Source of the DNA: Oscillospiraceae bacterium
GTDB lineage: Bacteria > Bacillota > Clostridia > Oscillospirales > Ruminococcaceae
NCBI GenBank assembly: GCA_017848155.1
Contig: JAGAKC010000295.1
Coordinates: forward strand, 1-8,565
Direction: 5' to 3'
DNA: 8,565 nucleotides
Of the stretch, positions 1 to 8,565 are shown in pieces (the stretch's first letter is position 1; each line of letters opens with the position of its first letter). Below the pieces are notes generated by a model. That model was not told the origin of the DNA and did not search any database. It saw only the letters and a list, made by a program, of their open reading frames with translations. The translations under genes and the position numbers were made by a program.

Positions 1-500
1 ATCGGCATGCTGGGCGCTCCGATAAGCACTAACACCGTCAGATAGAACACGATCGTAGCAGCCTTTCCGAACCACTTTGCACCGCCGAGGTCCTGCCCCT
101 TTTTGAGGAACAGAAGTCCCACGACAAGCATTGTAACTTCCTTGATTACGATCATAAGAAACAGCGTCACAAGCAGCCACCATATGCTCCTGTATCTGAC
201 GATAAGGCACACCACCACCGCAGCCTGTGTCAGCTTATCCGCAAAAGGGTCCAGTGCTTTTCCGAGATCGGTGATCATATTGAACCTGCGTGCAATAAAT
301 CCATCAAGCGCATCAGTAATGCCTGATATCAACACGATGACCGCTGCAAGAACATAACCGCTGACGTCACTCTCATCTGCACTCTTCATCATGCCGTCCT
401 CCCAGAGGAAAACTATGACAAACACAGGGATAAGCAGGATACGTGCCACGGTAAGTAAATTCGGAAGTTTTGTAATATCCCGAAGCTCTAACTTCATCAT
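1..500 (-). CDS. pgsA: CDP-diacylglycerol--glycerol-3-phosphate 3-phosphatidyltransferase (PgsA), C-terminus cut by window edge
   Basis: This membrane enzyme joins CDP-diacylglycerol and glycerol-3-phosphate to make phosphatidylglycerophosphate, the first committed step of phosphatidylglycerol and cardiolipin synthesis. The visible 166 codons start MMKLELRDITKLPNLLTVAR, a typical PgsA opening. They contain the complete CDP-alcohol phosphatidyltransferase signature D-x2-DG-x2-AR-x8-G-x3-D-x3-D, with D63, D66, G67, A70, R71, G80, D84 and D88. Hydrophobic segments lie near residues 19-33, 48-62, 92-115 and 117-132, and the conserved-looking AKWFGKAAT follows at about 141-149. Family members are usually 180-200 residues, so roughly 15-35 residues lie beyond position 1. 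A strong ribosome site (AGAGGTGAT, 501-509) sits directly before two tandem ATGs at 500 and 497. The second has the better spacing, so the true start may be 497. The gene follows the polysaccharide gene by 53 bases and is probably cotranscribed with it. The family call is firm. Confidence 0.93.
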   Translation of the reverse strand, partial: MMKLELRDITKLPNLLTVARILLIPVFVIVFLWEDGMMKSADESDVSGYVLAAVIVLISGITDALDGFIARRFNMITDLGKALDPFADKLTQAAVVVCLIVRYRSIWWLLVTLFLMIVIKEVTMLVVGLLFLKKGQDLGGAKWFGKAATIVFYLTVLVLIGAPSMP

Positions 501-553
501 ATCACCTCTCGATGTCATACACAAGGCGTGATCCATTCCGCCACGACCTACAT

Positions 554-2704
554 TTACTCGTTTTCGTCTTTTTCTGTTGCTGCGCTTTCTTCAGCTGCCT
601 TATTCGCAAGGAAACGTGCCTGACGCTCCTTTGCCTTTTCAAGCATTGCATCCACATCAGCCTTTGTCGGATTGGGCGCAGGCTTTTTCTGCATTTTATC
701 ATTTATAAGGCTTTCTGCCAGCTGTCTGCCACGATCCTCATAATCGGACAGCTCCTCGGCTGTAGCTACAGGAGCCTTCTTCTTAACGACCGCTATATCG
801 TCAACATCAACTACCTCGTTTCTGTCGGCTCTGCGGTTGATCGTATTCAGCGCAGCGCCTGTACCAAGAAGTATCCAGAATACGGGAGCGACCGATACGA
901 CAGAGTCGTTGAACATTCCTGCCGCAAGATATCCTATTATACCAAGCATGACCGATATACCGTATATCTGCTCGATACGATATTCTTTTCTGAGCGCATA
1001 CAGTCTGAAGCAGTCAACGATATAGAAAACACATATTGCCAGGAACGCTATCAGCGCAATTAATCCGTTTGATACAAAGATCTGGAGATAAAGGTTATGC
1101 GCCTTGTCGATGGTAACATGGAAGCCCTCTGTATACTCCTCGGAGAAGGTGTAGGTGTAGTACTTTGCAAGGTAATCCGTCTGCGGGAACACGTATGCAA
1201 ACGTATCTGCGCCATAACCTGTGATAAGGCAATTTTTCAGCAGAGGAAGCGTTCTCGACCAGATATAGCCACGACCGGAACCTATCCTCTCCTTGCCCTC
1301 AAAGCCTATATGCTCTGCGTTTACAGGCAGTATCCTTTCGCCGACCTTGAGGTCGATCATGTGTATCTGCTTTTCGTTGTGCAGATGGAAAAGCAACGCA
1401 GATTCGTCAGTATCATAGAACCACATGAAGAAGCTGTCCATATAGTCCAGCTCGTCATCAGAGGATACGAATTCAAAGTTTATATCTTTGAAATCCTCGT
1501 CAGCAACTGTTATCATGCCACGATCATCTTCCAGCTCAAGGACATTTCCGGCAGAGTCGGTAAATCTGTAATCAAGGCTTTCCTGATCGAACGAGATAGT
1601 CAGCTTGTCGGTCTGTGTTTCAAACGAAACACTGCCATCCTTGTTGTGGGTTATCTCTCTTACGGGAAGCTGTGAATAGATATCAGCGTCCTCCGCAGGA
1701 ACGATAAGCTCTGTAATATCCTGGAACAGGGAAGGTATTCTTCCGAAAAGTCCGTTATCCGTAATGATATTAGCGCCAACCAGCACCACAGCCGCAGCGC
1801 CGACTACCGATACAGTGATCTTCCAGCGGCGGACGAGCACCCGTCCGAATACGATAAGACCCACCACAAATGCCGCCGCAACCGCAACGATACCACTTCT
1901 CGCAACACTGCCAAACAGCATGAAGATGGCCATAAGGTCAAATACGATAAGCAGTAGCTTCTGCCACACAGGCTTCACATAAAGAGTGAGCACCGTGAAC
2001 AGCGGTATTATCATACCTGTAAAGCTGCCGACATAGTTAGAGTGGTAAAGTGCGCCGTAAAGTGCGCCCTCTCCGAGGCTCTCCTCCTTAAGCTGCAGCA
2101 TATCAGCGTATTCCCTGTCAGTAAATACGGAACGGAACCAGTCATACTGGAACAGGTTATTATCGGTAACCTGGAATATGCCGTAGATAAAGTTCACGCC
2201 TGTACAGATAAACAGCGCAAGGATTATATATCTGAAATTCTGTGTTTTCCTGAAAGCATACATCGTGAAAAGGAACATCACGAAGTAGCATGCGGTAGTA
2301 TAAAATCCCTCTGCCCTGTCAAAGGCTCCGAAAAAGGCTACCTCGGGATATGCGGAGCCAAGCGCTGAGAAAAGCGCCATCAGCACATAAACGACTGATG
2401 CGCCCGTATAGACCAGCGTGCGCTTCTCTACTCGTCTGAAAAGGAAAACACAGCACATAAGCGCCACAGACATCATGATGATGGCAAACACCACCACCGC
2501 AAATGCCTTACACTGCGAGAAGATATCTATCAGCAGATACGTGCCGTCCTCGGCGGCGGTCGCCGAAAACATCTTGAATGTTTCTACCAGACTTGACGTT
2601 GCGAATGTTACCTGCATAAGCGTCGGAATAAGGGCGAGCGCCACAACAGCAGGCAGGAATATCGCCAGCGCAGTAAGGTCTGTCTTCTGGGTTTCGTTCT
2701 TCAT
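554..2704 (-). other. Domain region: O-antigen ligase/polymerase (Wzy_C-type) part with its own possible start at M489
   Basis: From M489 (MKNETQKTDLTALAIF) the frame encodes a full 716-residue multi-spanning protein. Helices lie at about 498-520, 553-578, 584-604, 624-640, 647-668, 712-734, 737-755, 757-776, 786-801, 1032-1056, 1066-1085 and 1092-1110. A long hydrophilic stretch (802-962) precedes the Wzy_C signature GSGRGYIW, GYGADTF and HNLYLQ, so it probably lies outside the membrane. A charged tail (1111-1204), rich in Lys, Glu and Ala with helix and coiled-coil character, should be cytoplasmic. GGAG at 2714-2717, nine bases before the ATG at 2704, could serve as a ribosome site. Wzy polymerase, O-antigen-type ligase and cell-wall glycopolymer ligase cannot be separated by sequence alone. 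Confidence 0.75.
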
Positions 2705-4114
2705 TATCTTTTTCTCCGGTTTGGTCTTTTTTGTCTTTTTGTTCAGCTTTTCACTGTTCATGAATCCACTGAGAGCAGTCTTGACAAGTATAGATATATC
2801 AAGAAAGATGTTCCAGCTCTCTATGTACTCTATATCACATTCGATCCTTTTTTCAATGGATGTATCACCACGGAAGCCTCTCACCTGTGCAAGCCCCGTC
2901 ATGCCTGGCTTTACCTGATGCTTTATCATATACATCGGGATGCTCTTTTTGAAGCTCTCCACAAAGAATGGCAGCTCGGGACGGGGACCGACAAGGCTCA
3001 TATCACCTTTCAGGACGTTGAACAGCTGCGGCAGCTCGTCTATCGAGAATTTTCGAATGAACGCACCGAATCTTGTCTTTCTCGGGTCGTTGTCAGTGCT
3101 CCACGCTGTATCGGATGTGTCATTGTCCTTCATGGATTTCAGCTTGTACATCGTGAATATCTTTTTGTTCAGTCCGACACGTTGCTGCCTGAAGATCACC
3201 TTTCCACCCATGGTCGCCTTTATCACGATGGCCGAGACCAGCATCACAGGTGAAGAAAGTATAAGCAGCACCAGCGAGCCGATGATATCCATCGCCCTTT
3301 TCATGAAGGCGTTACCGATATTATCCAACGGTATGCGACGTATATTCATCATCGGAATACCGCCGACCACGTCAAATGACGGACTGGTGGTCATATATTT
3401 GTATATCGAAGGGATAACAGATATCTTTGTACCCGTAAGCTCACAGGCTTCTACAGCGTCGCCGAGATGCACCGTTTCCTCTGCATCCAGAGCACATACT
3501 ACCTCGCTGTAGCTGCGCCTGTCCAGTACGTTGAATATATCATCGAAGCTGCCAAGCCGCTTTGCGTCAAGACCTTCCGCATCCGCAATGTAGCCAGCGC
3601 ACTCGAAGCCCATCTGAGTTTCAGCACGTATAACATCAAGATAATGAGCGGCAGTTTCTCCACCACCGATAATGACCACGTGCTTTTTATTGTAACCACT
3701 GCTTCTGAATCTTTTCAGTGAATTGCGCAGGATAAACCTTTTGAGTGCGATTATAAAAAAATCCAGCACAAGGAATATTGCAAGCGCAAGACGAGAGAAA
3801 TTGAATATCTTCACGATGTACAGCATTGCAATGATTATCATGCCGTCCATCAGGAATGCCTGAAATATCCGCCACAGCTCCCTGCCGAAGGTGCTTGTCC
3901 TGAATGAATCATAAAGACCCATGCAGCCATAAGTGATGAGCTGGATAGGTATAAACACCAGAGCCAGCTTTATATAATCTATCAGAGGATAGTTTCTGTC
4001 AAAAACAAGCAAATTGAAAACAAGGAGGTAGGATATCACGACCGCAACAAGAGAAACCGCCGCATCGCTGATAACATTCAGCCTGTTGAACAGTTTCTGG
4101 TTTTCTTTTATCAT
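554..4114 (-). CDS. Sugar-1-phosphate transferase (WbaP/WcaJ-like) joined in frame to an O-antigen ligase/polymerase-like membrane protein
   Basis: One open frame encodes two normally separate polysaccharide proteins. It stays open to an ATG at 4168 (1204 codons; residues numbered from there), but I choose the ATG at 4114 (M19). M19 has GGAAAGGG five bases upstream, while 4168 has no ribosome site and lies about 10 bases from the predicted transcription start. Residues 19-470 are a polyisoprenyl-phosphate hexose-1-phosphate transferase. They comprise four membrane segments (about 34-150), a Rossmann-like region with VVIIGGG at 164-170, and the catalytic domain from 290 with KRAMDI, FRQQRVG, SIDELPQ (Asp377-Glu378 is the expected catalytic pair), GDMSLVGPRPE and VKPGMTGLAQVRG. 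It would load the first sugar phosphate onto undecaprenyl phosphate. After a Lys-rich linker (473-488), M489 begins a Wzy_C-type polymerase/ligase of 716 residues with many membrane helices, GSGRGYIW at 963-970, and HNLYLQ at 1024-1029. That part would polymerise or transfer the glycan outside the membrane. Whether one protein or two are made is open; see the junction entry. Confidence 0.85.
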   Translation of the reverse strand: MIKENQKLFNRLNVISDAAVSLVAVVISYLLVFNLLVFDRNYPLIDYIKLALVFIPIQLITYGCMGLYDSFRTSTFGRELWRIFQAFLMDGMIIIAMLYIVKIFNFSRLALAIFLVLDFFIIALKRFILRNSLKRFRSSGYNKKHVVIIGGGETAAHYLDVIRAETQMGFECAGYIADAEGLDAKRLGSFDDIFNVLDRRSYSEVVCALDAEETVHLGDAVEACELTGTKISVIPSIYKYMTTSPSFDVVGGIPMMNIRRIPLDNIGNAFMKRAMDIIGSLVLLILSSPVMLVSAIVIKATMGGKVIFRQQRVGLNKKIFTMYKLKSMKDNDTSDTAWSTDNDPRKTRFGAFIRKFSIDELPQLFNVLKGDMSLVGPRPELPFFVESFKKSIPMYMIKHQVKPGMTGLAQVRGFRGDTSIEKRIECDIEYIESWNIFLDISILVKTALSGFMNSEKLNKKTKKTKPEKKIMKNETQKTDLTALAIFLPAVVALALIPTLMQVTFATSSLVETFKMFSATAAEDGTYLLIDIFSQCKAFAVVVFAIIMMSVALMCCVFLFRRVEKRTLVYTGASVVYVLMALFSALGSAYPEVAFFGAFDRAEGFYTTACYFVMFLFTMYAFRKTQNFRYIILALFICTGVNFIYGIFQVTDNNLFQYDWFRSVFTDREYADMLQLKEESLGEGALYGALYHSNYVGSFTGMIIPLFTVLTLYVKPVWQKLLLIVFDLMAIFMLFGSVARSGIVAVAAAFVVGLIVFGRVLVRRWKITVSVVGAAAVVLVGANIITDNGLFGRIPSLFQDITELIVPAEDADIYSQLPVREITHNKDGSVSFETQTDKLTISFDQESLDYRFTDSAGNVLELEDDRGMITVADEDFKDINFEFVSSDDELDYMDSFFMWFYDTDESALLFHLHNEKQIHMIDLKVGERILPVNAEHIGFEGKERIGSGRGYIWSRTLPLLKNCLITGYGADTFAYVFPQTDYLAKYYTYTFSEEYTEGFHVTIDKAHNLYLQIFVSNGLIALIAFLAICVFYIVDCFRLYALRKEYRIEQIYGISVMLGIIGYLAAGMFNDSVVSVAPVFWILLGTGAALNTINRRADRNEVVDVDDIAVVKKKAPVATAEELSDYEDRGRQLAESLINDKMQKKPAPNPTKADVDAMLEKAKERQARFLANKAAEESAATEKDENE
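2701..2743 (-). promoter_or_regulatory. Fusion junction: A-runs, internal ribosome site and hidden TAATG stop/start
   Basis: Read on the minus strand, this stretch has an A5 run (2736-2740), an A6 run (2727-2732), GGAG (2714-2717), another A5 (2709-2713) and then ATG (2704-2702), which is in frame with the long ORF. In the +1 frame TAA (2706-2704) overlaps this ATG as TAATG and is followed at once by TGA (2703-2701). Removing one A from the A6 run would make the upstream protein end in that TAA. The arrangement matches a translationally coupled gene pair. The in-frame heptamer A AAA AAG (2732-2726) is also a classic slippery sequence. The bases are directly visible; the function is inferred. 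Confidence 0.6.
2705..4114 (-). other. Domain region: polyisoprenyl-phosphate hexose-1-phosphate transferase part
   Basis: This half is complete by family standards. It runs from the four-helix N-terminal membrane region through the CoA_binding_3-like Rossmann segment to the bac_transf catalytic domain. The domain ends with YIESWNIFLDISILVKT, which is where stand-alone members normally stop. If translation ended in the alternative (+1) frame through the A-rich stretch, the protein would finish with the basic tail KRPNRRKR and a TAA at 2704-2706, about 470 residues from M19. That is an ordinary length for the family. The sugar used cannot be told from sequence; Gal, Glc and GlcNAc/diNAcBac transferases share these motifs. 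Confidence 0.85.
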
Positions 4115-4127
4115 AATTACCCTTTCC
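4115..4127 (-). promoter_or_regulatory. Ribosome binding site that supports the start at 4114
   Basis: GGAAAGGG (4127-4120) lies five bases before the ATG at 4114. The upstream in-frame ATG at 4168 has only GCGTAGT before it and no purine-rich site. This decides the start in favour of MIKENQKLFNRLNVIS, which also resembles the usual N-terminus of this transferase family. Confidence 0.65.
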
Positions 4128-4184
4128 ACTATCCTGGCGAAATACTGCAAAAGCGCATATTTCGCCATACTACGCTATTATATA

Positions 4185-4352: not shown

Positions 4353-4796
4353 TTATTGCGCTGAAAACAAGTCACGCTGCTGCACGGCAAGTCTGTCGCA
4401 TCGCTCGTTTTCCTCGTGTCCTGCGTGTCCCTTTATCCAGCAGAATTCAACGTCGTGTATTTCCAGCAATTCAAGCAGCCTCTGCCATAGGTCAGGATTC
4501 AACGCAGGCTTTCCGTCGCTTTTTTTCCAGCCACGCTTTCTCCAGCCTGCTGCCCAGCCCTTTGTTATGCCATCAACAACATACTTGCTGTCTGTTGTCA
4601 GCTTCACCTTGCACGGAAATTTCAGTGCTGCAAGCGCTGTTATAACACCTGTCAGCTCCATCCTGTTATTTGTGGTGTGAGCATCTCCGCCGCTAAGCTC
4701 CTTTTCTCTTCCATCGCAGCGAAGTATCGCACCATAACCACCGGGGCCGGGATTACCACTGCATGCTCCGTCTGTAAAAATTTCTACATATTTCAT
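4353..4796 (-). CDS. rnhA: Ribonuclease HI
   Basis: This cytoplasmic enzyme cuts the RNA strand of RNA-DNA hybrids, clearing R-loops and replication primers. The 147-residue product is close to the usual length (E. coli 155) and all catalytic residues are present: D9 in [18 protein letters not shown]47 in NNRMELTG, D69 in [11 protein letters not shown]124 in IKGHAGH and D134 in ERCDRLA. The segment [17 protein letters not shown] (81-97) is the basic handle loop of the bacterial HI type. AAAGGGG (4804-4810) lies seven bases before the ATG at 4796. The gene stands alone between two hairpins, after the sugar-permease operon and before the polysaccharide unit. I see no clear promoter in the 55 bases upstream, so expression may depend on read-through or on a promoter inside the permease gene. 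No defects are visible. Confidence 0.97.
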
Positions 4797-4818
4797 CTCT
4801 TATCCCCTTTTATCCAGC

Positions 4819-4843
4819 AAAACAGCCTCCTTACGGAGGCTGT
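4819..4843 (-). terminator. Rho-independent terminator of the permease operon
   Basis: Read on the minus strand, ACAGCCTCC (4843-4835) pairs with GGAGGCTGT (4830-4822) in a nine-base-pair stem with a GTAA tetraloop, followed by a short T-tract (TTTTG counting the last stem base). It lies eight bases after the TAA of the MalG-type permease. The short T-run suggests incomplete termination, which would let some transcripts reach rnhA. Confidence 0.75.
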
Positions 4844-4851
4844 ATGTTTTA

Positions 4852-6150
4852 TTAGTTTGCAAGACCTGCACGCTCGATACCTTCTGTAAAGTACTTCTGG
4901 AGGAAGATATACATGATAACGATAGGAGCGATAGCAAGCAGACAGCCAGCTTCCATCCATACGATGAAGTCTGTAGCACGGCCTATCTCACCTGTGAGGT
5001 ACATGGAGATAAGGTTTGCAACGGAGTCTATCTTCAGGGAGATCGTGTTGCCCTGTGTAAAGTACATGGAGGAAACATAGAAGTCGTTCCAGTACCATAC
5101 GATTGAGAAGATAAACACTGTCAGGAATGAGCTTGCCGCATTGGGAACCATTACGCTGATAAAGGTCTTGAACGGACCGCATCCGTCAAGGTACGCAGCA
5201 TCCTCAAGCTCCTTGGGAAGTCCACGGAAGAACTGTCTGAACAGATAAATGAACAGACCCGAACGGATACCGTTACAGAAGAACGCAGGGATGTACATTG
5301 CCCAGTTTATATCAACAAGGGAAATGGAGTCGCCTAAAAGCCCGTTCAGCAGACCGAATACGTCAAAGTATCTGAAGCCCATGTACTGAGGGATAAGGAT
5401 GATCTGTGTGGGAACGATGATCTGCAGGATAACTATTCCGAACAGTATACCCTTGCCCTTGAACTTGAATCGTGCAAATCCATAACCTGTCATCGCACAT
5501 GTGGCAACCTGAAGTATCGACGAAACGATGTTAAGTACGATCGTGCTCCACAGCGTCTGCGGATACGATATTGCTTCCCATATCTCAGAGAAGTTTTCAA
5601 GACGGATGGTCTTAGGTATCCACATTACAGAGGGGTCGTTCATCTCCGACTGAGGACGCAGCGATGTAGACACCATGTAGATAATGGGATACAGGATTAC
5701 GAAGGAAAGACCGAATACAATGATAAATCTGAAGAACGGCCAGATATAGCTGGATATCCTGCGCCAGAAAATGTAGCGATAATGCTTCTTTTCCTTATCG
5801 GTATAGTGACGATAATTCTTGATGATATCAAAGTTCGACACACGATAGTCGTCTTTCTTTTTCTTTTCCTTCTTAGGCTTCTTTTCGGTCGCAACGGGTG
5901 TGACCACTGCGGAAGCCGCTTCCATATTAATGTCAGCGATAGGTTCGGCAGCAGGGGCTGCGGGAGCTACGGGTGCAGCGGGTGCAGCCTGAGGTGCAGC
6001 AGCACCAAACTCTGCGGCAAATGCAGCCGCTGCAGAGGACTGATCCTCTGCCACGGGTGCAGCCATTGTATCCGATGTTACATTTTCAGCAGGCTGATTA
6101 GCAACATTTGTATTCTCCCCGTTGGGGAAGCCGAAATTATTTTCTGTCAC
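4852..6150 (-). CDS. Carbohydrate ABC transporter permease, MalG type, with long Ala/Pro-rich N-terminal extension
   Basis: This is one of two inner permease subunits of a sugar importer of the binding-protein-dependent transport family. The conserved core (about 131-432) has six predicted helices near 137-161, 203-225, 235-256, 282-304, 340-356 and 396-418. It also has the EAA loop that contacts the ATPase, EDAAYLDGCG at 316-325 followed by VP at 335-336, and the family-typical WYWNDF at 352-357. The protein has 432 residues against about 270-300 for typical MalG-type subunits. The excess is an N-terminal Ala/Pro-rich stretch (about 30-90), then a Lys-rich block (KKPKKEKKKK) and a charged segment before the first helix. 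Translation starts at GTG (6150), eight bases after a perfect AGGAGG (6163-6158). An ATG at 6156 between them gives only six codons. The gene follows the MalF-type gene by 13 bases. The exact sugar is unknown. Confidence 0.93.
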   Translation of the reverse strand: MTENNFGFPNGENTNVANQPAENVTSDTMAAPVAEDQSSAAAAFAAEFGAAAPQAAPAAPVAPAAPAAEPIADINMEAASAVVTPVATEKKPKKEKKKKDDYRVSNFDIIKNYRHYTDKEKKHYRYIFWRRISSYIWPFFRFIIVFGLSFVILYPIIYMVSTSLRPQSEMNDPSVMWIPKTIRLENFSEIWEAISYPQTLWSTIVLNIVSSILQVATCAMTGYGFARFKFKGKGILFGIVILQIIVPTQIILIPQYMGFRYFDVFGLLNGLLGDSISLVDINWAMYIPAFFCNGIRSGLFIYLFRQFFRGLPKELEDAAYLDGCGPFKTFISVMVPNAASSFLTVFIFSIVWYWNDFYVSSMYFTQGNTISLKIDSVANLISMYLTGEIGRATDFIVWMEAGCLLAIAPIVIMYIFLQKYFTEGIERAGLAN

Positions 6151-6166
6151 TTCTCATACCTCCTTA
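6151..6166 (-). promoter_or_regulatory. Consensus ribosome site that selects a GTG start
   Basis: TAAGGAGGTATGAGAAGTG reads from the stop codon of the MalF-type gene (TAA, 6166-6164) through AGGAGG (6163-6158) to GTG at 6150. The TAA is part of the ribosome-site motif, so the ribosome ending one permease is placed to start the next. The intervening ATG (6156-6154) runs into TAA after six codons and is too close to the site. Confidence 0.8.
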
Positions 6167-7393
6167 ATCATTCTCGTAGAATACGAATCTGTTTACAATT
6201 ACCGTAATAAGTGCAAGGCACGCACCGATAATTGCGAAGTAGATCCACGCCAGTGCTGCGGAATAGCCGTATTCCCAGTCTCTTGACAGCATCAGAACGT
6301 ATTCCATTACCTTGTTATCCGTTGCAACGAATGCGTCGATGATCGTATATACAAGGTTAGAAAGGATCATCGGGCTTATGTAGGGGAATGTGATCTTCCA
6401 GAAGAACTCCCAGGAAGTTGCACCCTCCATAGCAGCCGCTTCCTTTGCGGACGGAGGTATCGTCTGCAGAGCGGAAAGGAAGATAAGGATCTGAATACCG
6501 GAGTTCCATACAAGGTTCAGTACGTCACTGGTAATATTCTTAATGACTTCTGTAAACGTCTGGTTGATATTGTAGATACCGATGAATTCCATCAGCTCCG
6601 TTACAAGGTCAGTCTTGAACAGTGTGCTGAACTGGGATGCATCAGATACACCCTGAGAGCTCATATCACCGTTGATAACGCTGATAACAGGACCTGTTGC
6701 GATAAGAACAGGCAGGAAGAAGATAGCACGTGCAAGTGTTCTTCCTCTGAACTTCTGGTTCAGGATAACTGCGATAAACAGTGAGAATATCAGGATAACG
6801 ATGGACTTCGGTCCGATATCCGCAAGGGATTCGGTCAGATAAGGCAGGAAGTTCGTATCACCTGTGAAAGCCTTGATGAAGTTACCAAAGTTGTTCCACT
6901 CGGTATAGATACCTGCGGTGGTCATACCATGTGCAAGTGCGTCTGCCTTACTGTAAAGGTGAGTTTCACTGAGCGAATACCACAGTGATGTGATTACAGG
7001 GATAACGAACAGCCAGAGTGTACCGATAGCCCAGAGACCAATAAATCCGTAACCGTAAAGGCTCTTCTTTCTCTCGTAGGATATCTTTGTGGTCTTGATC
7101 TTACGCTGTACCTTTTCGCCGTTTGCTCTGCGGACATCCACCTCTTCGTTCGCTGCGTTGAGCGCAGCGGCAGCGGCAGTATTGTGAGCAGATACTCTTA
7201 CGGGTGCGGGCGCAGGAGCTTCCTCTTTAGCAGGAGCCTCCTCAGCGGGAGCTTCCTTTTCAAGCTTTACAGGCGCCACGGACTGTGCGATCTCGGAAAC
7301 TGCTTCTGCAGGAGCTGCAGCAACTTCCTGTGCTGCTTCAGCTGCCTTTTCGGCTTCTGCGGCTGCAAGATCGAAATTTCTTTCGTCACTCAT
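6164..7393 (-). CDS. Carbohydrate ABC transporter permease, MalF type, with Ala/Glu-rich N-terminal extension
   Basis: This is the partner permease of the same importer, forming the membrane channel with the MalG-type subunit. The core (about 112-409) has predicted helices near 113-138, 196-212, 222-240, 292-311, 341-357 and 381-403. The EAA loop KEAAAMEGAT (317-326) is followed by FP (336-337). A hydrophilic region at about 140-190 after the first helix would face outwards. Typical family length is about 290-320 residues; this one has 409 because of an N-terminal extension. Residues 8-65 are almost all Ala, Glu, Pro and Lys, and a basic segment (RRANGEKVQRKIKTTK, 88-103) follows. Its ATG overlaps the stop of the preceding DUF5696 gene by one base (TGATG, 7395-7391). 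The nearest ribosome site, AAAGGAG (7413-7407), is 13 bases away, so translation is probably coupled. Transported sugar and partner ATPase are not identifiable here. Confidence 0.93.
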   Translation of the reverse strand: MSDERNFDLAAAEAEKAAEAAQEVAAAPAEAVSEIAQSVAPVKLEKEAPAEEAPAKEEAPAPAPVRVSAHNTAAAAALNAANEEVDVRRANGEKVQRKIKTTKISYERKKSLYGYGFIGLWAIGTLWLFVIPVITSLWYSLSETHLYSKADALAHGMTTAGIYTEWNNFGNFIKAFTGDTNFLPYLTESLADIGPKSIVILIFSLFIAVILNQKFRGRTLARAIFFLPVLIATGPVISVINGDMSSQGVSDASQFSTLFKTDLVTELMEFIGIYNINQTFTEVIKNITSDVLNLVWNSGIQILIFLSALQTIPPSAKEAAAMEGATSWEFFWKITFPYISPMILSNLVYTIIDAFVATDNKVMEYVLMLSRDWEYGYSAALAWIYFAIIGACLALITVIVNRFVFYEND

Positions 7394-8565
7394 CAGTCAG
7401 TTGTCGCTCCTTTCAGTCCATAATCAGCAAGAGAGATCTCTGTGCCGTTGATCTCAAGTGTAAAGTTATAAAGGTCAGCCTTGATAACTGTGCCATCGGA
7501 GAAGGTCGTTTCAACGATATCTCTGTCGATGTACTTGAAATCTGTGATAGTTTCATCGGAGAGCTTAGCGATGTGATCCTTTGCGAGCTTGTACTCGCCG
7601 GCAGCTACATCAAGCCAGCCCTCGTAGAATGTGTAGAACAATGTGTCATAGCTGCAATCCGTGAACTCGTTGGGGTTCTCGTGCATTACCTCGTAGTGGA
7701 GAGGTGTGCCTGTTGCAACAGAGAGGATAAACAGTTCCTCCGCACCGGAGCTTGCATTCTTAGCCTTTGTCGTGTAGGGAACATAGCCGTGAAGCACGAT
7801 CTGGATGAACGGGATATCATAGTCGTAAACATCAAAGTTACTGCTATAAAGCGGAACGTTTCTTATGCAGTCTGCATACGGGATAGCATAATCGTTACAA
7901 GCATTTGCAACGAACTTCATGCCGCTTGCATTGATCTTAGCGTAATTTTCCTTCAGGATCTCAACAGCCTGCTGTCTGGAGGTCTTTCTGGTAGCGTTAC
8001 CTGTGAAGTCACTGTACAGCATGTTCGTGCCGTCAGCAACGGAGATAGCGCTCATGCCCTCCTTGGTATAGCTGGAGATAACGGAATCGTATGCCTTGTT
8101 GTAGTTTGCGGGAGAAAGGATATACCAGTTTGCTCTGGTGTCATGAGGAGTGCCGAATGCACGCTCGTAAGCACCCTGAGTAGCATATGCCTTTGTTACT
8201 CTTATGGAGGACGCACCAGTCTTGGAGAAGCCGTTGCCGGATCTCTCGTACTCCATCAGCTCAACGCTTGGAGCAAGTGTAGCACCTATGCTTGCGCAGT
8301 AGTCAGCAAGCTGCTTGAACTTACCCTTACCGCCGAGTGTACCGGAGTAATCAACACCGCCGGAGATCCTGTCGGTAATTCCTGCGCCGTTGAAGTCCTC
8401 ATAAGTGATGACCATATCGTTGATTCCGAGGTTGTAGAAGCTCTCAACGATCTCCTTTGCCTCTTCATATGTCGTTGCAGGTGTTTCAAGAGAAATGGGG
8501 AAGCCCATTACGGACTGCTGCTTAACAGTACCGCCGAAGATATCAAGATAGAAGGGTGAGCTTCC
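7393..8565 (-). CDS. DUF5696-domain protein, probable glycosidase-like barrel, N-terminus beyond window edge
   Basis: The frame is open to the window edge, so 390 codons of a longer protein are visible; the ATG at 8508 is internal. The visible start GSSPFYLDIFGGTVKQQSVM, then TTYEEAKEIVESFYNLGIND and DMVITYEDFNGAG, fit my memory of the DUF5696 family, large proteins encoded beside sugar ABC permeases in Firmicutes. The alternation of short hydrophobic strands and helices (MVITYED, GATLAPSVEL, GMSAISVADG, GMKFVANACND, FIQIVLHGY) suggests a TIM-barrel like those of glycoside hydrolases. Acidic residues at strand ends (EDF, SVELME, VADG, YSDF) are possible active-site candidates. No enzyme activity is established for this family as far as I know. 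The C-terminus (TTFSDGTVIKADLYNFTLEI) looks like a small beta domain. The gene probably heads or sits within the operon with the two permeases and may process the sugar they import. Location (secreted or cytoplasmic) cannot be judged without the N-terminus. Confidence 0.8.
   Translation of the reverse strand, partial: GSSPFYLDIFGGTVKQQSVMGFPISLETPATTYEEAKEIVESFYNLGINDMVITYEDFNGAGITDRISGGVDYSGTLGGKGKFKQLADYCASIGATLAPSVELMEYERSGNGFSKTGASSIRVTKAYATQGAYERAFGTPHDTRANWYILSPANYNKAYDSVISSYTKEGMSAISVADGTNMLYSDFTGNATRKTSRQQAVEILKENYAKINASGMKFVANACNDYAIPYADCIRNVPLYSSNFDVYDYDIPFIQIVLHGYVPYTTKAKNASSGAEELFILSVATGTPLHYEVMHENPNEFTDCSYDTLFYTFYEGWLDVAAGEYKLAKDHIAKLSDETITDFKYIDRDIVETTFSDGTVIKADLYNFTLEINGTEISLADYGLKGATTD

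Follow-up and report, generated by a model that had tools for sequence, protein, structure and literature searches.

The Fused Gene and Its Predicted Products

We analysed an 8,565-nucleotide stretch of DNA (the window) from an Oscillospiraceae bacterium (assembly GCA_017848155.1, contig JAGAKC010000295.1), in which a single open reading frame (ORF) of 1204 amino acids on the minus strand (554..4168) is predicted, from profile and fold matches, to join a sugar-phosphate transferase to a polymerase of the Wzy_C/O-antigen-ligase type. At the boundary between the two enzymes, the bases GGAG are followed, after a nine-base gap, by an in-frame ATG. Comparison with relatives suggests that this in-frame transferase–polymerase fusion is common to many of them and that GGAG-N9-ATG is likely a selected internal start that would also give the polymerase alone; we put the probability of this reading at roughly 0.77.

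Each of the seven fused relatives read as DNA has its earliest in-frame Met at one aligned position, opening MIKENQ or MVKENQ, and for this reason the window gene probably starts at 4114 (start codon 4112..4114, minus strand, opening MIKENQ) and not at 4168. Residues are numbered here from that codon, which makes the internal Met M471 (M489 when counted from 4168). Ahead of the gene's own start lies the ribosome-site-like GGAAAGGG (4120..4127, minus strand), with a predicted anti-Shine-Dalgarno (anti-SD) pairing of −4.1 kcal/mol compared with −6.6 kcal/mol at the internal site. Domain matches (CoA_binding_3 and Bac_transf) place the transferase part and the linker at residues 1–470 (2705..4114, minus strand), and the polymerase part, if translated alone from the internal Met, would comprise 716 amino acids (80.6 kDa; 554..2704, minus strand, stop codon included).

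An initial annotation of this locus had called a transferase followed by a polymerase, and the profile matches bear this out. The first part scores as an undecaprenyl-phosphate sugar transferase of the WcaJ/EPS type (TIGR03023, 423.4 bits against a cut-off of 410.75), passes the curated threshold for EPS_sugtrans (TIGR03025, 422.1 bits against 295.55), and also matches PF02397 and PF13727, and the second half matches PF04932 (Wzy_C/O-antigen ligase, 41.7 bits against 31.7). Seven sequence matches in the Protein Data Bank, to WbaP-type and diacetylbacillosaminyl-phosphate transferases with WbaP the best, cover the first part only, and a fold comparison of the protein model ranked WbaP and WaaL highest (for WaaL, 7tpg, Foldseek E 2.4e-4 and TMt 0.62). 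The second part is, on the profile match and this modelling, a predicted member of the Wzy/WaaL polymerase–ligase superfamily with a WaaL-like fold and with either polymerase or ligase activity. The AlphaFold model is poor (predicted local distance difference test below 50) over residues 302–343 and 364–475, which take in the linker and a large share of the catalytic region of the transferase, and is therefore uninformative on the joint. A beta-rich stretch is modelled between the polymerase membrane segments, before the C-terminal Wzy_C match (window ~1280–1699, residues ~806–945 counted from 4114).

At the joint, the Shine-Dalgarno (SD) core GGAG (2714..2717) falls within the codons CCG GAG (Pro-Glu) and is followed by the spacer (2705..2713) and the ATG (2702..2704), all on the minus strand. 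The initial annotation had read these letters correctly (2717–2714, 2713–2705, and 2704–2702 in reading direction). We also confirmed its description of the +1 frame, in which a TAA (2706–2704) overlaps the ATG and a TGA (2703–2701) comes next (together 2701..2706, minus strand), and of the A-runs, an A6 at 2727–2732 and A5 runs at 2709–2713 and 2736–2740; the +1 frame after the A6 run gives KRPNRRKR and then stops. The window gene and its seven fused relatives each have a single open frame across the joint, with no first ORF ending at or near the second start.

Fused and Split Relatives

Among the best 120 of 243 protein matches, 74 are full-length fused proteins (P0001–P0074), which together with the window's own make a set of 75; P0075 and P0076 are cut fused proteins. 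The closest public protein among the matches listed, P0001, is itself fused, is 98% identical across 1204 residues, and stands for a cluster of 9 member sequences. The matches listed also include 68 stand-alone polymerases (P0077–P0120 and P0240–P0263). A fusion that has long been kept is the best reading of these sequences.

The genus was sampled through 43 genomes, including the window's. A complete fused gene is present in eight of them (the window's, G017, G008, G035, G015, G022, G004, and G012), the two genes are split in three (G027, G037, and G030), and G003 has only a polymerase piece at a contig edge, where the junction is not visible; no close match was found in the remaining genomes of this sample. 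The DNA of the seven fused relatives and of two of the split ones was taken from contigs L031–L039, which belong to metagenome assemblies labelled Oscillospiraceae or Clostridia. Transferase and polymerase share one frame in each of the eight fused genes, with GGAG-N9-ATG-A in frame. Where the genes are split, in three genomes, the transferase is offset by one base from the polymerase frame; it runs past the polymerase start and stops inside the polymerase in two of the three and ends ten bases before that start in the third, and GGAG lies 7–9 bases ahead of the polymerase ATG in each of these same-genus relatives. In an outgroup genus, the genes are split and adjoining (L013, L086, L088, and L089).

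The initial annotation had held that a fixed fusion would be favoured by uniform A6 in high-depth reads together with relatives that share the fused frame but have lost the TAATG. All seven fused relatives share the frame and lack TAATG, as that view expected, but all seven keep GGAG-N9-ATGA. Furthermore, among the matches listed, we found no stand-alone transferase more than 80% identical to the window's, no stand-alone polymerase more than 62% identical, and no split copy of this species, although clustering at 90% could hide one.

Smaller observations concern the split relatives and the stand-alone proteins. In L039 and L084, the end of the transferase reads through the polymerase start in a different frame, its last residues being encoded on top of the polymerase N-terminus. 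Comparable tails (for example, TDERTKTKA and NERTEKN) recur at the C-termini of the stand-alone transferases P0121–P0180. The stand-alone polymerase P0098 is annotated from MKIAEKNYMNNN, which contains the fused-type Glu-x-x-x-Met motif, and this entry may represent a truncated fused gene or a pair that separated recently.

Conservation of the Proposed Internal Start

Is the joint conserved beyond what the fused protein needs? The Glu of the SD core and the internal Met stand four residues apart in all 75 full-length fused proteins, and likewise in P0075 and P0076. The linker before the Glu is 7–20 residues long in the 75 proteins and changed in length at least 14 times within one all-fused clade of 44 sequences and at least 12 times among the other 31, with no change in the Glu–Met spacing. 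Both E467 and M471 are invariant columns in an alignment of 38 of the 75. Measured from a common point at the first membrane segment, 65 of the 68 stand-alone polymerases listed begin 10–16 residues before it, and the internal Met of the 75 fused proteins falls in the same range; the exceptions are P0098, which begins further upstream, and P0241 and P0247, which begin inside the polymerase and look truncated.

At the DNA level, GGAG-N9-ATG is present in 8/8 fused genes, which gives each an internal in-frame start codon with an SD core at workable spacing; the nine-base spacer is constant in length and variable in sequence. The genetic code leaves synonymous freedom here, as the Glu could be GAA and the preceding codon could end in any base. 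The residue before the Glu is Pro in 44 of the 75 proteins, Ala in 18, Ser in 6, Thr in 5, and Leu and Met in 1 each, all of which allow codons ending in G, and in all eight DNA sequences the codon before the Glu does end in G and the Glu is GAG. By the genes' own codon use, the joint chance of the GGAG codons over the eight genes is ~2e-6 if the rows are independent, which they are only in part. For scale, G is shared by all eight genes at 2 of 261 four-fold columns, and GAG is used throughout at 3 of 15 Glu columns.

Synonymous sites between the eight genes are largely randomised, with a third-base identity at four-fold sites of 0.30–0.49 over 28 pairs compared with 0.24–0.31 expected from composition; the randomisation is not complete because identity within L034–L037, which belong to one clade, is 0.43–0.49. 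The junction is the sole place where GGAG is aligned in 8/8 fused genes. Similarly, 11 internal columns are Met in all eight, and the SD core accompanies the Met in 8/8 only at the junction and in 0–3 of 8 elsewhere. In these eight genes, conservation at the joint exceeds the need of the encoded protein, as is expected of an internal translation initiation site.

The predicted RNA properties of the site point in the same direction. The anti-SD pairing is −6.6 kcal/mol in 8/8 genes and is in every one stronger than that at the gene's own start (−2.1 to −5.6 kcal/mol). For the 60-base segment centred on the joint's ATG, the predicted folding energy is 0.0 to −3.5 kcal/mol compared with gene means of −11.5 to −13.9 kcal/mol, and in all eight genes this segment is among the least structured 0.4–1.6% of the segments of its gene.

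We also considered ATGA as a conserved coupling signal and rejected it. The TGA of ATGA occurs in 8/8 fused genes, and the TAA over the ATG occurs in the window gene only; despite the former, P0068 has Leu after the Met, so ATGA is not obligatory. An A following the ATG is usual at start codons.

A separate observation concerns the residue before the SD Glu (window 2718–2720), which is never Lys, Glu, or Gln in the 75 proteins; these residues make up 42% of the upstream linker. A codon ending in AG before the Glu would give the stronger AGGAG, which, from these residue counts, seems to be avoided before the internal start.

Repeated Fusion and Splitting

We estimated the history of the fused and split states on four trees, all of them quick trees without bootstraps. 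The polymerase trees required 7 changes between the states with 123 rows (6 forced by starred, that is, supported, branches), 7 with 77 rows (5 forced), and 9 with 145 rows (7 forced), and the transferase tree, with 135 ingroup rows, required 8, all 8 forced. The 77-row tree omitted 47 of 124 rows, including near-copies and 32 members of the 44-row clade. The 145-row tree excluded P0241 and P0247, and L090_out, for which a wrong open frame had been chosen, is absent from the trees. As reconstructed here, the fused and split states changed repeatedly in evolution. A single fused clade was rejected on the polymerase tree (approximately unbiased test, p 4e-61, on a quick tree of 77 of 124 rows). 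With a split root, the shortest histories, all equally short, range from 3 fusions and 6 fissions to 5 fusions and 4 fissions, with no preference for one direction of change.

One clade is uniformly fused: all 44 of its rows are fused, the Glu and the Met are kept in 44/44, and the linker insertions and deletions (indels) are always in frame. This frame-keeping is partly built in, since the rows were picked as fused. The sister of the clade is P0240, a stand-alone polymerase that opens with MNNKGKTN at the position of the internal Met; the 45 rows including P0240 form a starred group, and the 44 without it have a support of 89 and are not starred. When we searched from a polymerase of this clade and allowed both fused and stand-alone proteins, the 44 fused proteins and P0240 were listed before scores dropped from 949 to 790 bits. 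The proteins of this clade are ~70–140 residues longer than the window's, and their alignment to it stops near the beta-rich stretch.

A Proposed Two-Product Gene

We infer that ribosomes initiate at the internal ATG and that selection keeps the site because free polymerase is needed beside the fused form. From one mRNA, ribosomes starting at 4114 would make the 1186-residue fused protein of ~134 kDa, and ribosomes starting at 2704 would make the 716-residue free polymerase. As the polymerase would have its own start, linker indels could fuse or separate the genes with that start retained and the polymerase unharmed, which would explain the repeated changes between the fused and split states. 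The lysine-rich linker would be cytosolic, where the positive-inside rule would place the N-terminus of the polymerase. A simple possibility is that the cell needs polymerase in excess of transferase and that the tethered share would link the first step to polymerisation.

A wider version of this proposal has, in our judgement, an even chance of being right. It holds that the joint is a selected internal start through which one mRNA would give tethered transferase–polymerase and free polymerase in a set ratio, that the start module stays fixed while the joint opens and closes, so that lineages switch between one gene and two without losing the second enzyme, and that the two-product form has become fixed in at least one divergent lineage. 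In only part of the enzyme pool would the initial and the polymerising steps of a surface polysaccharide then be physically linked.

Several points weigh against an internal start. Both the fused and the free proteins are predictions from sequence alone, and the site was read as DNA in eight fused genes, the other fused rows being judged by their residues. The codon-use figure given above overstates the case because the eight genes are related, L034–L037 belonging to one clade. An SD core ahead of an internal in-frame ATG is found in 23 of 320 cases over the eight genes, the 8 junctions included, and in up to 7 of 45 in L034. SD strength, according to the account in PMC7043885, need not predict initiation. 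The motif pattern itself demanded Glu-x-x-x-Met, and free alignments agree with its result. The low RNA structure at the joint may come partly from its A-rich make-up, and the small fused clades could be recent and their site a leftover. Finally, selection might act on the polymerase start alone, with the fused form no more than a by-product; the 44-row clade argues otherwise, within lists that cover the best 120 matches.

Alternative Explanations

Could the site instead be a fossil of a split pair, the fusions being repeated and so recent that the GGAG and the ATG have not yet decayed? The 7–9 changes on the four trees, 5–8 of them forced by supported branches, are what such a history would leave, and the split relatives have the same kind of site. 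Decay, on the other hand, is what we did not observe: the Met is lost in 0 of 75 fused proteins, and the uniformly fused 44-row clade retains both the Glu and the Met in 44/44 through at least 14 changes in linker length. In addition, GGAG is kept although synonymous sites between the eight genes are largely randomised, and the residue before the Glu varies (Pro, Ala, Ser, Thr, Leu, or Met), yet its codon ends in G in 8/8. We consider this explanation unlikely.

The GGAG might also act within elongation, slowing the ribosome for folding of the transferase or insertion of the first polymerase helix, with no internal initiation. Its place within coding sequence, where two domains meet and a membrane segment is about to follow, would fit such a pause site. 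Pausing, however, leaves unexplained why the Met is invariant and its distance fixed, why it coincides with the start of the unfused relatives, and why the RNA at the ATG is unstructured, and we regard it as very unlikely.

The initial annotation had offered, among other causes, a switch in the A6 run (2727..2732, minus strand), in which slippage or indels would toggle between fused and separate forms. There is some basis for this idea, as every linker (8/8) has A-runs of 5–7, no +1-frame stop intervenes between the longest run and the one over the ATG in 7/8, and frame changes at this spot have occurred in evolution. However, when the linkers were back-translated with each gene's own codons, the run lengths fitted this null from the encoded residues (P 0.10–0.66; P 0.47 for the window's A6, which is not above expectation for a lysine-rich linker), and a +1 frame open over the whole linker was expected in 0.24–0.80 of the null draws. 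The positions of the runs shift, two relatives have no run longer than 5, and L035 has a further +1-frame stop after its A6. Phase variation and transcript slippage in bacteria usually involve tracts longer than 6, and the mark of phase variation, a long tract beyond that required by the encoded residues and kept in relatives, was not found. As the A-runs fit the null and no close stand-alone copy, nor a split copy of this species, is among the matches listed, a slippage switch is highly improbable. What survives of that proposal is its outcome: a well-formed ribosome site and start make both fused and separate proteins likely, and the separate polymerase would need no slippage since the internal start is in frame. 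Its notion of a one-base frame change is likewise partly upheld, in the wider sense that split relatives are out of frame at this spot and changes between the fused and split states recurred, but not as a recent event in the A6 run.

That the genes are truly split and one base is wrong, an error that a fragmented assembly (498 contigs, 76.9% complete) and the existence of split relatives might suggest, is scarcely credible, and a fresh mutation, which the initial annotation had also offered, is unlikely too, because P0001 is fused and 98% identical over 1204 amino acids with 9 member sequences and 74 fused proteins are among the best 120 matches; the frame is, moreover, common to all seven fused genus relatives read as DNA.

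Relation to Known Systems

Internal in-frame starts and transferase fusions as a class are known, and the window gene is a predicted variant of them. A close likeness to the proposed internal start is SctQ (HrcQ, Spa33) of type III secretion, in which one gene gives the full-length protein and, from an internal in-frame start, a separate C-terminal protein (PMC8553256, PMC6925163); the internal start of HrcQ is preceded, at a distance of 11 bases, by a potential SD (GAGG) (PMC8553256). As described there, however, the short form of SctQ is a fragment that binds the long form, whereas that of the window would be a whole second enzyme, and the SctQ start was shown by mutation and blot, whereas ours is predicted. 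Cas8/Cas11 (PMC11899642) and RpnL/RpnS (PMC10327210) are similarly genes within genes, with two products from one frame by internal initiation. Their second product is a small subunit or an antitoxin in these accounts, which do not describe fused/split alternation, and that of the window would be a complete membrane enzyme.

The split relatives resemble coupled gene pairs, the overlapping or abutting genes whose coupling is the subject of PMC6728339, in that they overlap or abut and carry the second start and GGAG in or just past the 3′ end of the transferase gene; PMC3711429 gives a general treatment of coupling and of frame transitions. Unlike such pairs, the two ORFs of the window are one, without termination before the second start. 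Bifunctional monotopic phosphoglycosyl transferases (Bi-PGTs) have a transferase domain fused to another functional domain (PMC10942596); the window protein differs in its large-PGT make-up and its polytopic Wzy/WaaL-type partner, a partner not named in the account of PMC10942596. In the literature as far as it was seen, we found no description of a transferase–polymerase fusion, with or without an internal start, which is not proof of absence.

Gene fusions are usually read as one gene and one tethered protein, and annotation of this kind hides a second product. The four fused proteins with a source name among the matches listed are called only undecaprenyl-phosphate glucose phosphotransferase, and an unannotated polymerase would be hidden in many public fused genes if the internal start is functional. 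With their fused and split pairs arranged about a single fixed start, the relatives also provide a natural series for direct tests of how genes fuse, step by step, and of what fusion adds.

Genomic Context

No other polysaccharide genes were seen in the window (3–536 and 4353–8565). Upstream of the fused gene are a ribonuclease H, two ABC permeases, and a DUF5696 gene, and downstream is a CDP-alcohol phosphatidyltransferase. The latter also lies downstream in two of the seven fused relatives (L032 and L033) and was not found in the available stretches of the other five. In L039, the ribonuclease H and the permeases are on the opposite strand. The TGATG that the initial annotation had cited as an example of coupling is present at 7395–7391, where it joins the DUF5696 ORF to the first permease ORF, with base 7393 shared between the stop and the start.

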